NCBI RefSeq assembly: GCF_022812285.1
Contig: NZ_CP093300.1
Location: 186,001-250,000, forward strand
Direction: 5' to 3'
From: Alkalihalobacillus sp. LMS39
GTDB lineage: Bacteria > Bacillota > Bacilli > Bacillales > Bacillaceae_F
Length of the DNA stretch: 64,000 nt
Each line of letters starts with the position of its first letter. Within the stretch, counting starts at the first letter, position 1. This document shows positions 15,491-20,770 of this stretch, in pieces. The position numbers and the translations under genes were made by a program. The notes below the pieces were generated by a model. It was not told where the DNA came from. It was given only the letters and a program-made list of their open reading frames with translations, and searched no databases.

Positions 15491-15826
15491 ATGACGGTTC
15501 AAATGGAGACAGCAACGAAGGTCTTAAAGCTTCTAGGCGATAAAACACGGCTGACAATGATGTCGCTTTTAATGGAAGATGAATGCTGTGTGTGTGAATT
15601 TGTTTCTCTTTTTGATATGAGTCAACCTTCTGTAAGCCAACACCTTAGAAAACTTAGAGATATAGGGTTAGTGCTTGAGGAGCGACGTGGTCAATGGATT
15701 TTTTATCGGGCAAATGCAAATCATGAAGCATATGAGCTGATGGTTTCATTACTGAAACATCTCCCAAGTCAAAAAGAAAAATTACATGACCTCGAACAGA
15801 AGGGGTTGCGGGTTTGTTGTGAATAA
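15491..15826 (+). CDS. arsR: Arsenical-responsive repressor ArsR
   Basis: A 111-residue winged-helix metalloregulator. The metal site ECCVCEF at about 31-37 contains the CVC of the DNA-contacting helix 3, followed by the recognition helix MSQPSVSQHLRKLRDIGLV and a wing RRGQWIFYRAN. A second CC near the C-terminus (RVCCE) could add ligands. Arsenite or antimonite binding releases it from the operator listed upstream. AAAGGAG stands 8 nt before the ATG. First gene of the six-gene ars operon. Confidence 0.95.
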   Translation: MTVQMETATKVLKLLGDKTRLTMMSLLMEDECCVCEFVSLFDMSQPSVSQHLRKLRDIGLVLEERRGQWIFYRANANHEAYELMVSLLKHLPSQKEKLHDLEQKGLRVCCE

Positions 15827-15852: not shown

Positions 15853-17163
15853 ATGACTTCTGTAGTTTTAGCGTCGGCCATCTTCCTGCTTACATTAGTG
15901 CTCGTGATTTGGCAGCCGAAAGGTTTATCAATAGGTTGGTCTGCCACGATTGGAGCAGTGCTTGCTTTACTTGTTGGTGTTGTCGATTTTGGAGACGTTC
16001 TAACCGTAACGGGGATTGTATGGAATGCAACGTTAACCTTTGTGGCGATCATTATTATTTCACTAATCTTAGATGAAATTGGATTTTTTGAATGGTCTGC
16101 CTTACATATGGCACGGTTTGCAAATGGAAATGGAATAAAGATGTTTGTTTATGTTTCTTTATTAGGAGCGGTTGTAGCTGCATTATTTGCAAACGACGGG
16201 GCAGCCCTCATTTTAACACCGATTGTACTAGCGATGGTCCGGGCTTTGCGATTTAAAGATGCGATGATTCTTCCGTTTATTATGGCAAGTGGTTTTATTG
16301 CGGATACGACGTCATTGCCTTTGATTGTTAGTAATTTAGTAAACATCGTGTCGGCCGACTTTTTTGGAATTGGATTTGTGGAGTATGCGACAAGAATGAT
16401 TGTTCCGAACTTCTTTGCACTAGGTGCAAGTATTCTTGTATTGTATGTTTACTTTAGAAAAGACATTCCAAAGCAATATGATATGGAGCAATTAAAAAAA
16501 CCAGAAGAAGCGATTAAAGATAAACAGTTATTTTCATTATCATGGTGGATTTTAGCTGTATTATTAATTGGGTATTTTGTAAGTGAATTTATTGAAATTC
16601 CAGTATCGTTTGTCGCTATGCCAGTGGCATTTGTGTTTTATTTTATTTTTAGAATGATTAGTGCGAAAAATGAACAATTAAGCTCTGCTGGAATTATAAA
16701 AGGAGCGCCTTGGGCGATTGTTGTCTTTTCAATTGGAATGTATGTCGTTGTCTATAGCTTACGAAATGTAGGATTAACCGATATGTTAGCGATTGTGATT
16801 GAACAGGCGGCAGATCAAGGATTATTTGTTGGAACGATTTCGATGGGGTTCATTGCTGCGATATTGTCTTCGGTTATGAACAACATGCCAACAGTAATGA
16901 TTAATGCCCTTGCGATTGCAGATACTTCCACAACCGGTGCAATGAGAGAAGCATTAATTTATGCCAATATTATTGGTTCTGATTTAGGGCCAAAAATAAC
17001 GCCAATTGGTTCGTTAGCCACATTGTTATGGCTTCATGTGTTAGCGAAAAAAGGTGTAAAAATCACGTGGGGTTATTATTTTAAAGTTGGAATTATATTA
17101 ACGATACCAACATTGTTTATCACATTAGTTGGTTTGTATTTATGGCTATTACTCATACTTTAA
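15853..17163 (+). CDS. arsB: Arsenite efflux permease ArsB
   Basis: A 436-residue membrane protein of the ArsB/NhaD class with about 12 helices; E. coli ArsB has 429. Typical motifs include [17 protein letters not shown] near residue 112 and [16 protein letters not shown] in the second half. It exports arsenite or antimonite, either proton-coupled or, together with ArsA, ATP-driven. An ArsA gene is present downstream, so the pump form is likely here. RBS AGAGGAG precedes the ATG. 26 nt after arsR. Confidence 0.95.
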
Positions 17164-17181: not shown

Positions 17182-17601
17182 ATGTCAAAACCAATTATTT
17201 ATTTTTTATGTACAGGGAATTCATGCAGAAGCCAAATGGCAGAAGGATGGGGGAAATACTTTTTAAGCGAGAAGTATGATGTCTATTCGGCAGGGATTGA
17301 AGCACATGGTGTCAATCCGAATGCAGTAAAAGCGATGGCAGAAGCGGGAGTAGATATTTCAGCTCAAACATCTGATACGATAAACCCTGAAATTTTACAA
17401 AAAGCAGACCTTGTTGTTACTTTATGTGGTCATGCTAACGATGTATGTCCTGCAACACCACCGAATAAAGACAGAGTTCATTGGGGATTTGATGACCCGG
17501 CAAAAGCAGAAGGAACAGATGAAGAAAAATGGGCATTTTTCCAGCGAGTACGAGATGAAATTCGCGATAGAATAAAAGAGTTTGCTGAAACAGGAAAATA
17601 A
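17182..17601 (+). CDS. arsC: Arsenate reductase ArsC, thioredoxin-coupled
   Basis: A 139-residue cytosolic enzyme related to low-molecular-weight phosphatases. It turns arsenate into arsenite using the catalytic Cys10 of the P-loop CTGNSCRS and the Cys82/Cys89 pair ([11 protein letters not shown]), which passes the disulfide to thioredoxin. This layout is that of the B. subtilis and S. aureus enzymes. The second of two adjacent ATGs (17182) has GGGG 7 nt upstream; 17179 is the alternative. 18 nt after arsB. Confidence 0.95.
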
Positions 17602-17608
17602 AAAGTAG

Positions 17609-17632
17609 GGGATGTTTCCTTTGAAACATCCC
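17609..17632 (+). promoter_or_regulatory. Intercistronic hairpin between arsC and arsD
   Basis: GGGATGTTTC and GAAACATCCC form a 10-bp stem with a 4-nt loop, but no U-run follows. It is therefore more likely an mRNA-processing or 3'-protecting hairpin than a full terminator; it could lower expression of arsD-arsA relative to arsRBC. Confidence 0.55.
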
Positions 17633-17671: not shown

Positions 17672-18028
17672 ATGAAAATAGAAATCTTTGATCCGGCGAT
17701 GTGTTGTGATACGGGTGTGTGCGGACCGAACGTAGACCCAGAGTTAACAAGAGTAGCCACAGCGATTTATCTGCTTCAACAGCAGGGCATTTCCATTGTT
17801 CGATATAACTTAACTTCTGAACCACAAGCGTATGTGGATCAGAAAGAGGTCACTCAATTATTGGAGGAAAAAGGAACGGAAAGTCTTCCTATTGTGATTG
17901 TGAATGATAAAGTCGAAAAAATAGGCGAATATCCAACAAATGAAGAACTTGCTATGTGGACAGGGCTGGATATAAGTTTTTTTACAAAAAAAGAAAAAAG
18001 CTTAGGAAAAGAAATTAAACTGTTATAA
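17672..18028 (+). CDS. arsD: Arsenite metallochaperone ArsD
   Basis: A 118-residue protein that carries arsenite to the ArsA ATPase. The essential cysteines Cys11, Cys12 and Cys17 (MKIEIFDPAMCCDTGVCGP) correspond to Cys12/13/18 of the E. coli protein. The extra vicinal pairs at the E. coli C-terminus are absent, and a basic tail replaces them. AAAGGAGG stands 7-8 nt before the ATG. Immediately precedes arsA, its partner. Confidence 0.95.
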   Translation: MKIEIFDPAMCCDTGVCGPNVDPELTRVATAIYLLQQQGISIVRYNLTSEPQAYVDQKEVTQLLEEKGTESLPIVIVNDKVEKIGEYPTNEELAMWTGLDISFFTKKEKSLGKEIKLL

Positions 18029-18041
18029 AAGGATGGATATT

Positions 18042-19802
18042 ATGAGGCAGCGATTTCTTCCAGCAGAGATGGAAATGACCCGTTATTTGTTTTTTACGGG
18101 GAAAGGTGGCGTTGGAAAAACATCAACAGCCTGTGCCACCGCACTACAGTTAGCTGAGGTAGGGAAAAAAGTGTTAATTGTAAGCACGGACCCGGCCTCC
18201 AATTTACAAGATGTGTTCCGTATAAACATTGACCGTCAAACTACAGCTATCCCTAATGTAGACGGCTTATTTGCGATAAACATTAATCCAGAACAAGTCG
18301 CAGCGCAGTACCGAGAAAGTGTAATTGGACCATATCGAGATAAGCTTCCAGCACCAGTTATTATGCAAATGGAAGAGCAATTATCAGGAGCATGTACGGT
18401 TGAGATTGCAGCATTTAATGAATTTGCTGACGTCCTAACGAATGAAGAAATTGCAAACCAATACGACCATATTATATTTGATACAGCGCCAACTGGCCAC
18501 ACACTAAGGTTATTACAGTTACCAACAGCATGGTCACAGTTTTTAGAAGAATCCACACATGGAGCTTCATGTCTAGGTCCGCTTTCTGGCTTAGCAGAGA
18601 AAAAACATCTGTACAATGAAGCTGTGAATGCGTTAGCTGATAAAGAAAAAACAACCTTGTTATTAGTAACGAGACCGGATAAATCGGCGATTCAAGAAGC
18701 GAACCGGGCATCAGATGAACTTTTTGACATTGGCTTACAAAATCAATGGGTCATTATCAATGGCAAGATGCAGCGATATGAAAAATTTGATGAGATCGCA
18801 AAGGCGTTTTACAACCGCCAGGAACAGGCACTTGAAACATTGACAGGTCGTTTACTAAAACTTCCGACATTTGAGATTCCATTTGTGTCTTATGAAATAA
18901 CAGGGACAGAGGCATTACGAGTATTTTTTAAAGAAAATAAAATGCAGGAAACGAAATCAGAATTACAAAAAACAACGCTTCCTCCATTATCGGAATTGCT
19001 AGACACGTTAGCGAAAAAGCAAAGTGGTGTCGTTATGACGATGGGAAAGGGCGGGGTTGGGAAAACTACAATTGCATCAGCGATAGCGATTGGATTAGCT
19101 GAGCAAGGCCATCAAGTACACTTAACGACAACCGATCCGGCTGCTCACTTATCTCACGTGTTTGGGGACGAAATCACGAAAAAAAATCTTCAAATTAGTG
19201 TGATTAATCCTGAAGTTGAGGTAGAAGAATATAAAGAAGATATTTTGTCAAAGGCAAAAGAGGCACTTGATGAAGATGGCTTAGCTTATTTAAAGGAAGA
19301 TTTACACTCACCATGTACTGAAGAAATTGCTGTGTTTCAAGCGTTTGCCAAAGTAGTCGACCAAGGTGAAAATCAGTTTGTTGTTATTGATACAGCACCA
19401 ACGGGTCATACATTACTATTATTAGATGCTGCTCAGTCTTACCAAAAGGAAGTAACAAGAACAACTGGTGAAGTACCTAAGGAAGTTGAACGCTTATTAC
19501 CACGACTACGTGATAAGCGAGAAACAGATGTTGTCATTGTCACATTACCAGAGGCAACACCGTATTACGAAGCAAAGCGGCTAGCTGATGATTTAAAACG
19601 AGCAGAAATTAATCCCACATGGACAGTGATTAATCAAAGCTTTGCATTGACAACGACGACAGACCCTATTTTAAAACAACGAGCAACAGCAGAATGGAAA
19701 TGGATTGAGAAAATACAAACGTTAACAAGTCAAACCGTTATCACACCTTGGCAAATTCATGATACGATTGGATATAGTCATGTGAAAGAATTACTAACAT
19801 AG
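18042..19802 (+). CDS. arsA: Arsenite-stimulated ATPase ArsA
   Basis: A 586-residue protein of two homologous halves that binds ArsB and drives arsenite export. Each half has a deviant Walker A (FTGKGGVGKTS near 19, MGKGGVGKTT near 330) and a DTAPTGHT signature. The three metalloid-binding cysteines of the family are visible: SGACTVEIA and GASCLGPL in half 1 and SPCTEEIA in half 2. The ATG at 18042 has AAAGGATGG at normal spacing; the ATG at 18033 does not. The stop overlaps the ribosome site of the next gene. Confidence 0.95.
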   Translation: MRQRFLPAEMEMTRYLFFTGKGGVGKTSTACATALQLAEVGKKVLIVSTDPASNLQDVFRINIDRQTTAIPNVDGLFAININPEQVAAQYRESVIGPYRDKLPAPVIMQMEEQLSGACTVEIAAFNEFADVLTNEEIANQYDHIIFDTAPTGHTLRLLQLPTAWSQFLEESTHGASCLGPLSGLAEKKHLYNEAVNALADKEKTTLLLVTRPDKSAIQEANRASDELFDIGLQNQWVIINGKMQRYEKFDEIAKAFYNRQEQALETLTGRLLKLPTFEIPFVSYEITGTEALRVFFKENKMQETKSELQKTTLPPLSELLDTLAKKQSGVVMTMGKGGVGKTTIASAIAIGLAEQGHQVHLTTTDPAAHLSHVFGDEITKKNLQISVINPEVEVEEYKEDILSKAKEALDEDGLAYLKEDLHSPCTEEIAVFQAFAKVVDQGENQFVVIDTAPTGHTLLLLDAAQSYQKEVTRTTGEVPKEVERLLPRLRDKRETDVVIVTLPEATPYYEAKRLADDLKRAEINPTWTVINQSFALTTTTDPILKQRATAEWKWIEKIQTLTSQTVITPWQIHDTIGYSHVKELLT

Positions 19803-19813
19803 GAGGAACATAT

Positions 19814-20095
19814 ATGGAAATTACATCACGGGCAAAAGAAACATTGCTAGAAATTATGGAAGAAAAACAAGCAAGCGGAGTTCGCTTTTATTTTGCAGGC
19901 ATGGGCTGAGGTAGCCCTAAGATTGGACTGGCTCTGGATGAGCCAGAAGAGGATGATATTGTAGAAGAAATTTCAGGGATTACGGTTGCCATTGATAAGA
20001 TGATTGAGCACGAGGCAAGAACAATAACATTAGATGTACAAGAACATAACGGTCAACGAGGGTTTGTACTATTAGGGACAAATGATTGTTGTTAA
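19814..20095 (+). CDS. HesB/IscA-like protein with in-frame TGA, probable selenoprotein
   Basis: A 93-residue protein read through TGA at 19907-19909 (codon 32). The flanking residues are YFAGMG-U-GSPKIGLALDEP; in HesB-like proteins a Cys stands at that position, and selenoprotein forms of this family are known. The frame is open on both sides and ends GTNDCC before a TAATAA double stop. A hairpin with a UGGAU loop follows the TGA (see 19928-19946). AGGAGG lies 7 nt before the ATG and overlaps the arsA stop, so it belongs to the ars operon. HesB/IscA relatives bind iron or Fe-S clusters; a link to arsenic or redox defence is inferred from position. The alternative is a nonsense mutation; no other lesion is seen. 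No Sec machinery lies in the window. Confidence 0.8.
19928..19946 (+). promoter_or_regulatory. Candidate bacterial SECIS element
   Basis: CTGGCTC and GAGCCAG form a 7-bp stem with loop TGGAT, 25 nt from the TGA to the loop. Known bacterial SECIS elements need a short stem within about 16-37 nt of UGA and a G in the first two loop positions; both hold. The stem uses CTG, CTG and GAG codons where this AT-rich genome mostly uses TTA and GAA. Confidence 0.7.
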
Positions 20096-20163
20096 TAAAT
20101 GAAAGAGTGTGGTTGAGTAAGAGGCGTGGGAAAACATACCCCAATAACTACATTTCATCACGG

Positions 20164-20194
20164 GAACTATCGAAACTTGATAGTTCTTTTTTTT
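20164..20194 (+). terminator. Terminator of the ars operon
   Basis: GAACTATC and GATAGTTC form an 8-bp stem with a 7-nt loop, followed by eight T. It lies 69 nt after the stop of the TGA-containing gene, so that gene is inside the transcript. Confidence 0.9.
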
Positions 20195-20436: not shown

Positions 20437-20770
20437 ACAGTGGTGAGGGACAAAATAAGGACAAAACGAGGAGAAAATGAAGCGAAAGTGTCCTTCATAA
20501 AGGCGATGAAGGACAAAACGAGGAGAAAACGAAGCGAAAGTGTCTTTCATAAAGGCGATGAAGGACAAAGTGAGGAGAAAACGAAGCGAAAGTGTCCTTC
20601 ATAAAGGCGATGAAGGACAAAACGAGGAGAAAATGAAGCGAAAGTGTCTTTCATAAAGGAGATGAAGGACAAAGTGAGGAGAAAACGAAGCGAAAGTGTC
20701 CTTCATAAAGGTGATGAAGGACAAAACGAGGAGAAAACGAAGCAAAAGTGTCCTTCATACAAATGAGATG
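20437..20770. repeat. 52-bp tandem repeat array with one hairpin per unit
   Basis: Hairpin units begin at 20489, 20541, 20593, 20645, 20697 and 20749, exactly 52 nt apart. Each is TGTCCTTCAT, a 7-nt loop and ATGAAGGACA, then a 25-nt linker of the type AAACGAGGAGAAAACGAAGC. Single changes (TGTCTTTCAT) are the only variation. There is no coding frame across it and no variable spacers, so it is not CRISPR. Confidence 0.9.

Follow-up and report, generated by a model that had tools for sequence, protein, structure and literature searches.

What is an in-frame TGA doing in the last gene of an arsenic-resistance operon? The question is raised by a stretch of 64,000 nucleotides of Alkalihalobacillus sp. 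LMS39 (contig NZ_CP093300.1, positions 186,001 to 250,000; hereafter the window), in which a small HesB/IscA-like gene closes an arsenic-resistance (ars) operon and carries TGA as its codon 32. A preliminary description of the window, made from its letters alone, proposed that this gene encodes a selenoprotein. Comparison with relatives supports each part of that proposal: the UGA as a selenocysteine (Sec) codon, a selenocysteine insertion sequence (SECIS) behind it, the fold of the product and the place of the gene in the operon. The TGA is very probably a real Sec codon, and there is little doubt that the gene specifies a selenoprotein of the A-type (IscA/HesB) fold within an ars operon.

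The frame opens with an ATG at 19814, 11 bases past the arsA stop codon, on the same strand as and in one gene run with arsR, arsB, arsC, arsD and arsA. Its TGA is flanked by YFAGMG and GSPKIGL, and 61 more codons lead to GTNDCC and a double stop, TAA TAA (20093-20098). The predicted product has its closest named relative in Alkalihalobacillus bogoriensis ATCC BAA-922 (95% identity). The preliminary description had noted the frame, a strong ribosome-binding site and a 7-bp hairpin with a UGGAU loop at SECIS distance from the TGA, and every detail of it that was checked against the sequence proved correct (Table 1).

If the TGA encodes Sec, relatives should carry it, or Cys, at the same place. 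A first survey found a match to the window protein in 32 of 61 genomes, the window's own counted. The alignment used below holds 141 genes, of which three come from plasmids and 138, counting that of the window, from sampled genomes (where they may be chromosomal or plasmid-borne). Three matches of low significance (L082-L084, with E above 1e-8) are kept in it, and at least 22 weaker ones are left out. At the column of codon 32, 100 genes have TGA, 35 have Cys and six have an acidic residue (Asp or Glu), with no TAA, TAG or second TGA in the part read. The preliminary description had expected Cys at this column and had named random stops in relatives as grounds for giving up the selenoprotein; the column shows the former, and in the part read the genes lack the latter. 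Past the TGA, codons also appear to be under constraint. Compared with the nearest member of the genus, 10 of the 61 codons differ synonymously and one non-synonymously, and the next relative differs by 21 synonymous and 17 non-synonymous codons.

A tree of the 141 proteins, built with the Sec column removed, requires at least seven changes between Sec and non-Sec forms, and at least four among the ars-linked rows when these are scored as Sec, Cys or other. No direction is claimed for these changes, because the tree contains several long rows and, of its 137 inner branches, 61 are open. Matches also occur beyond the order. A sample of the phylum comprised 398 genomes and gave matches at E 1e-8 in 30, of which three, the host genome among them, belong to the window's order. 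The 27 loci read in the other 27 genomes have a single TGA in 26 cases, followed by CTCTGGA in 23 of these 26. No ArsA, ArsB, ArsC or ArsD match lay within at most 1.5 kb of these 27 loci, and an ArsR-like match lay near one. A search of 50,697 phage records at E 1e-3 returned no match.

Decoding UGA as Sec requires dedicated machinery, for which the preliminary description had suggested searching. The host genome (4,850,562 bases in one contig) contains a tRNA-Sec with anticodon TCA (60.5 bits, over the cut-off) together with selA (570.8 bits), selB (360.2 bits) and selD (403.6 bits), all inside about 12 kb; all other matches of these searches fell below the cut-offs. The host selD is itself a selenoprotein gene, with one in-frame TGA in a GUGCK motif (L051:9515-10567).

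Across the order, the codon follows the machinery. With selA as a stand-in for the whole Sec trait, the order was sampled with 397 genomes, of which 181 score over the cut-off; the preliminary description had called Sec use rare in Bacillaceae, but in this order it is common. Among copies from sampled genomes, 98 of the 99 Sec copies lie in genomes with selA, while 30 of the 33 Cys copies and all six Asp/Glu copies lie in genomes without selA over the cut-off. The three selA genomes with a Cys copy, which in each stands beside ars genes, are G037, G014 and G128, of which the first two also carry Sec copies. In G037, one ars cluster holds a Sec copy and another a Cys copy (L054, L057), a pair that offers a natural test system for the benefit of selenium.

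The hairpin provides a further line of evidence. According to PMC13188914, bacterial SECIS elements carry a G in one of the first two places of a small apical loop, which in most of them lies 16-37 nt after the UGA; the rule applied, from the same source, allows a stem of 4-16 bp and a loop of 3-9 nt. The window hairpin, CTGGCTC-TGGAT-GAGCCAG, obeys this rule (7 bp, UGGAU, 25 nt). When the window gene by itself was randomly recoded under the same protein sequence, with codons drawn as the ars genes of the window use them, all seven pairs arose in 0.6% of trials. In 22 aligned Sec rows, 95.5% of the 154 cells are paired, three of the seven stem pairs are invariant, and the covariation score exceeds that of all 500 shuffles. 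Synonymous recoding reached the observed pairing in less than 2% of trials for 19 of these rows; for 12 Cys rows it equalled the observed pairing in at least 18% of trials. Counts over all copies agree with this. Sec copies keep seven pairs in 73 cases, six in 25 and five in two, whereas one Cys copy keeps six, one keeps five and the remainder four or fewer; Asp/Glu copies keep three to five. The hairpin is not kept in Cys copies.

A SECIS-model search of the host genome scored the window gene at 70.7 bits and gave three weak matches besides (E 1.2 to 6.8); the first look yielded 2189 candidates, of which 150 went on to scoring, and the selD element was absent from its matches. An Rfam scan of the site gave chance-level matches only (E 1 or worse). 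Two distant Sec-type relatives, L082:9477-9755 (+) and L083:9118-9384 (-), carry EKSTUG as their motif and lack the terminal Cys pair, and their stem is altered on both sides (TTAACTC/GAGTTAA) with pairing still complete.

Several observations weigh against a Sec-decoding reading. In the 22 Sec rows, three pairs are changed on both sides, a number matched by 104 of the 500 shuffles, and the pair-type count was equalled in 50 of 500, in shuffles that ignore relatedness. For three of the 22 rows, recoding gave equal pairs in 5.6-8.8% of trials. Moreover, one Sec-type copy (L111) sits in a genome, G384, where selA and tRNA-Sec both fail to reach the cut-offs, although both are present in G168, a member of the same genus. 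Either the assembly of G384 has a gap, or the trait was lost recently and the TGA copy can no longer be read through. This copy is also the observation that suits a disabling nonsense mutation or a sequencing error in a Cys-type gene, since some copies may indeed be dead. As an account of the window gene, however, damage of this kind is vanishingly improbable and was rejected: TGA occupies one column in 100 of 141 genes with no other stop in the part read, change after it is biased towards synonymous sites in the closest relative, the hairpin covaries, and the codon co-occurs with selA. It is also very unlikely that the UGA is suppressed or read as Trp, Cys or some other residue in place of Sec. 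Under a changed code, an open frame would by itself fit any residue, but the host has the full Sec machinery, the hairpin follows the bacterial SECIS rule, the choice between Cys and TGA follows selA, and selD carries the same kind of codon. The hairpin just past codon 32 would recruit SelB with Sec-tRNA(Sec), and comparison suggests that the UGA is then read as Sec.

To which family does the protein belong? Among solved structures, those of IscA and SufA resemble it most, one of them an IscA that carries a [2Fe-2S] cluster, and this places it among proteins of the A-type fold. IscA has three Cys ligands and a C-terminal CxC; in E. coli IscA (1r94, 1s98) these residues are Cys only, with the CxC near the end. 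The window protein is 18% identical to 1r94, appears to place Sec32 at the first ligand Cys position and ends in CC. It falls short of the profile thresholds that would name it. PF01521 gives 19.5 bits against a gathering score of 26.3 (alignment A2 has 28 members, and the family is seen at E up to 0.1 in 27), and the HesB-selenoprotein models TIGR01911 and NF038090 give 46.4 against 66.35 and 58.8 against 85. Ten scanned relatives, in Sec, Cys and Asp forms, are likewise under both selenoprotein cut-offs, and one relative (L213) passes the broader TIGR00049 (59.8 against 58.8).

HesB-like selenoproteins were on record by 2006, in a paper whose table counts three selenoproteins in Bacillales (PMC1794560). 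With these proteins, grouped under TIGR01911, the window protein shares the A-type fold, a Sec replacing a conserved Cys, a UGA with a SECIS and the existence of Cys homologues (PMC1794560, PMC13188914). It differs in scoring below the cut-off, in having UGSP where PMC13188914 describes UxGP (several relatives have UGGP), and in its ars-operon setting, which the accessible portions of these two papers do not mention for the family.

HesB-like genes in ars operons have also been described. For example, orf7 of the ars1 operon of Bacillus sp. CDB3 is HesB-like, lies downstream of arsA and adjoins a dual-specificity phosphatase gene, orf8 (PMC4562236), a likeness drawn from its description and not from its sequence. 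Among the 141 loci considered here, a gene of the dual-specificity phosphatase cluster lies just upstream in 32 (median distance 23 bases), all of them ars-linked; the window operon lacks it. The order differs, as ars1 ends with orf7 then orf8, and the loci here have the phosphatase before the HesB-like gene. The available text on CDB3 makes no mention of Sec, and the same is true of the available text on hesB in the ars operon of Exiguobacterium aurantiacum SW-20, likewise compared by description and not by sequence (PMC8779447). Both halves of the present finding were therefore known separately (PMC1794560, PMC4562236, PMC8779447), and a literature search, with most subscription journals outside its coverage, found no paper on a Sec-type HesB protein in an ars operon.

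The linkage to ars genes recurs. A copy was counted as ars-linked when a same-strand tblastn match to the window ArsA, ArsB, ArsC or ArsD at 40% identity or more lay between 6 kb before and 3 kb after it. In the flanks examined, this holds for 31 of the 100 Sec copies, 27 of the 35 Cys copies and all six Asp/Glu copies (L164, L167, L174, L178, L182 and L193, which adjoin arsB and arsC). Linkage may be undercounted, because the flanks of L097-L120 extend at most 1.5 kb. It also reaches mobile elements: on a Cytobacillus firmus plasmid, a Sec copy follows arsA, trxB and the phosphatase gene, with no gene listed on the copy itself. Four more Cytobacillus plasmids match the protein and list nothing at the spot (their gene table is incomplete); from arsA on, the stretch shows 94.5-94.7% DNA identity, with codon 32 not read individually in these four. 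A plasmid-borne gene of this kind would depend on the Sec machinery of its host and could work only in some recipients. Two plasmid Cys homologues within ars operons, L090:6001-6285 and L091:6001-6276, are annotated as 'adhesin', an ill-fitting name for an IscA-like fold. Given that the 11 scored proteins fall under the selenoprotein cut-offs and that nothing is listed at the spot on the five Cytobacillus plasmids in that incomplete table, arsenic operons may be annotated with one gene too few. In this Bacillus-type order, a selenocysteine protein repeatedly accompanies a metalloid-resistance operon, in one case on a plasmid.

What would such a protein do? As the predicted last product of the arsR-B-C-D-A operon, the 93-residue protein could form a selenolate/dithiolate metal or metalloid site from Sec32 and Cys92-Cys93. 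During arsenic stress it would then bind arsenite and pass it to the ArsA-ArsB pump, or buffer it. This is the likeliest role, although it is put forward tentatively and a part in carrying or repairing Fe-S clusters ranks only a little lower. All 31 ars-linked Sec copies have U-G, end in CC and contain no further Cys, and a CC at the site of Sec is found in 21 of the 27 ars-linked Cys copies compared with one of the eight Cys copies away from ars genes. The leaning towards arsenite binding stems from this extra neighbouring Cys where Sec is absent, which suits a soft metalloid site. The C-terminal CC lies, however, at the low-confidence end of the structural model (last block at a pLDDT, the predicted local distance difference test, of 53). 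An arsenic role is further weakened by the 69 of 100 Sec copies without ars genes in the flanks examined, which indicate that this type of protein is not specific to arsenic, and by the six ars-linked Asp/Glu copies. None of these six has any Cys, so some ars-linked relatives must do without thiol or selenol chemistry. For the link to arsenite handling drawn in the preliminary description, the support consists of operon position and the Cys/Sec pattern.

The protein could instead be a selenium-using carrier or repair factor for Fe-S clusters, co-expressed with the ars genes as arsenite damages such clusters, with no handling of arsenite itself. This alternative, which concerns the last step only and is compatible with a selenoprotein, is possible if somewhat doubtful. 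The IscA and SufA folds, one of them with a [2Fe-2S] cluster, and the Sec copies without ars neighbours suit it; the terminal CC in place of the CxC usual for IscA does not, and the vicinal CC of most ars-linked Cys copies fits arsenite at least equally. A broader form of the arsenite-binding role, a selenium-dependent arsenite chaperone in many bacteria of the order, with Sec32 and the Cys pair feeding ArsA and a vicinal Cys pair serving lineages that lack Sec, is at present unlikely. If it were true, selenium supply would set arsenic tolerance.

Table 1. Features of the ars operon and its terminal gene (window positions).
Feature	Position	Strand	Remarks
arsR, ArsR/SmtB-family repressor	15491..15826	+	PF01022 60.4 bits; NF033788 94.1 bits, over cut-off
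arsB, arsenite efflux permease	15853..17163	+	PF02040 690.3 bits; TIGR00935 773.5 bits, over cut-off
arsC, thioredoxin-type arsenate reductase	17182..17601	+	TIGR02691 226.7 bits, over cut-off; alternative in-frame starts 17164 and 17179
10-pair hairpin, arsC-arsD gap	17609..17632	. (found in - strand listing)	
arsD, arsenite metallochaperone	17672..18028	+	NF033727 135.5 bits, over cut-off
arsA, arsenite pump-driving ATPase	18042..19802	+	TIGR04291 844.3 bits, over cut-off; alternative in-frame start 18033
Shine-Dalgarno AGGAGG	19801..19806	+	read from sequence; overlaps arsA stop codon; 7 bases 5' of ATG
HesB/IscA-like gene, predicted selenoprotein	19814..20095	+	93 residues, Sec32, C-terminal Cys92-Cys93
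UGA codon, predicted Sec	19907..19909	+	codon 32; aligned column TGA 100/141, Cys 35/141, Asp/Glu 6/141
Bacterial SECIS hairpin	19928..19946	+	7-bp stem, UGGAU loop, 25 nt past UGA
Terminator-like hairpin with T run	20162..20188	+	would end the operon; consensus match only

Two features of the operon's surroundings may be added. A hairpin between arsC and arsD of CDB3 ars1 is reported to lower expression of the full operon (PMC4562236), and the 10-pair hairpin of the window occupies the same place. Immediately 3' of the operon, at 20457-20759, lies a tandem array of a 52-bp unit in 5.8 copies with 92% matches.
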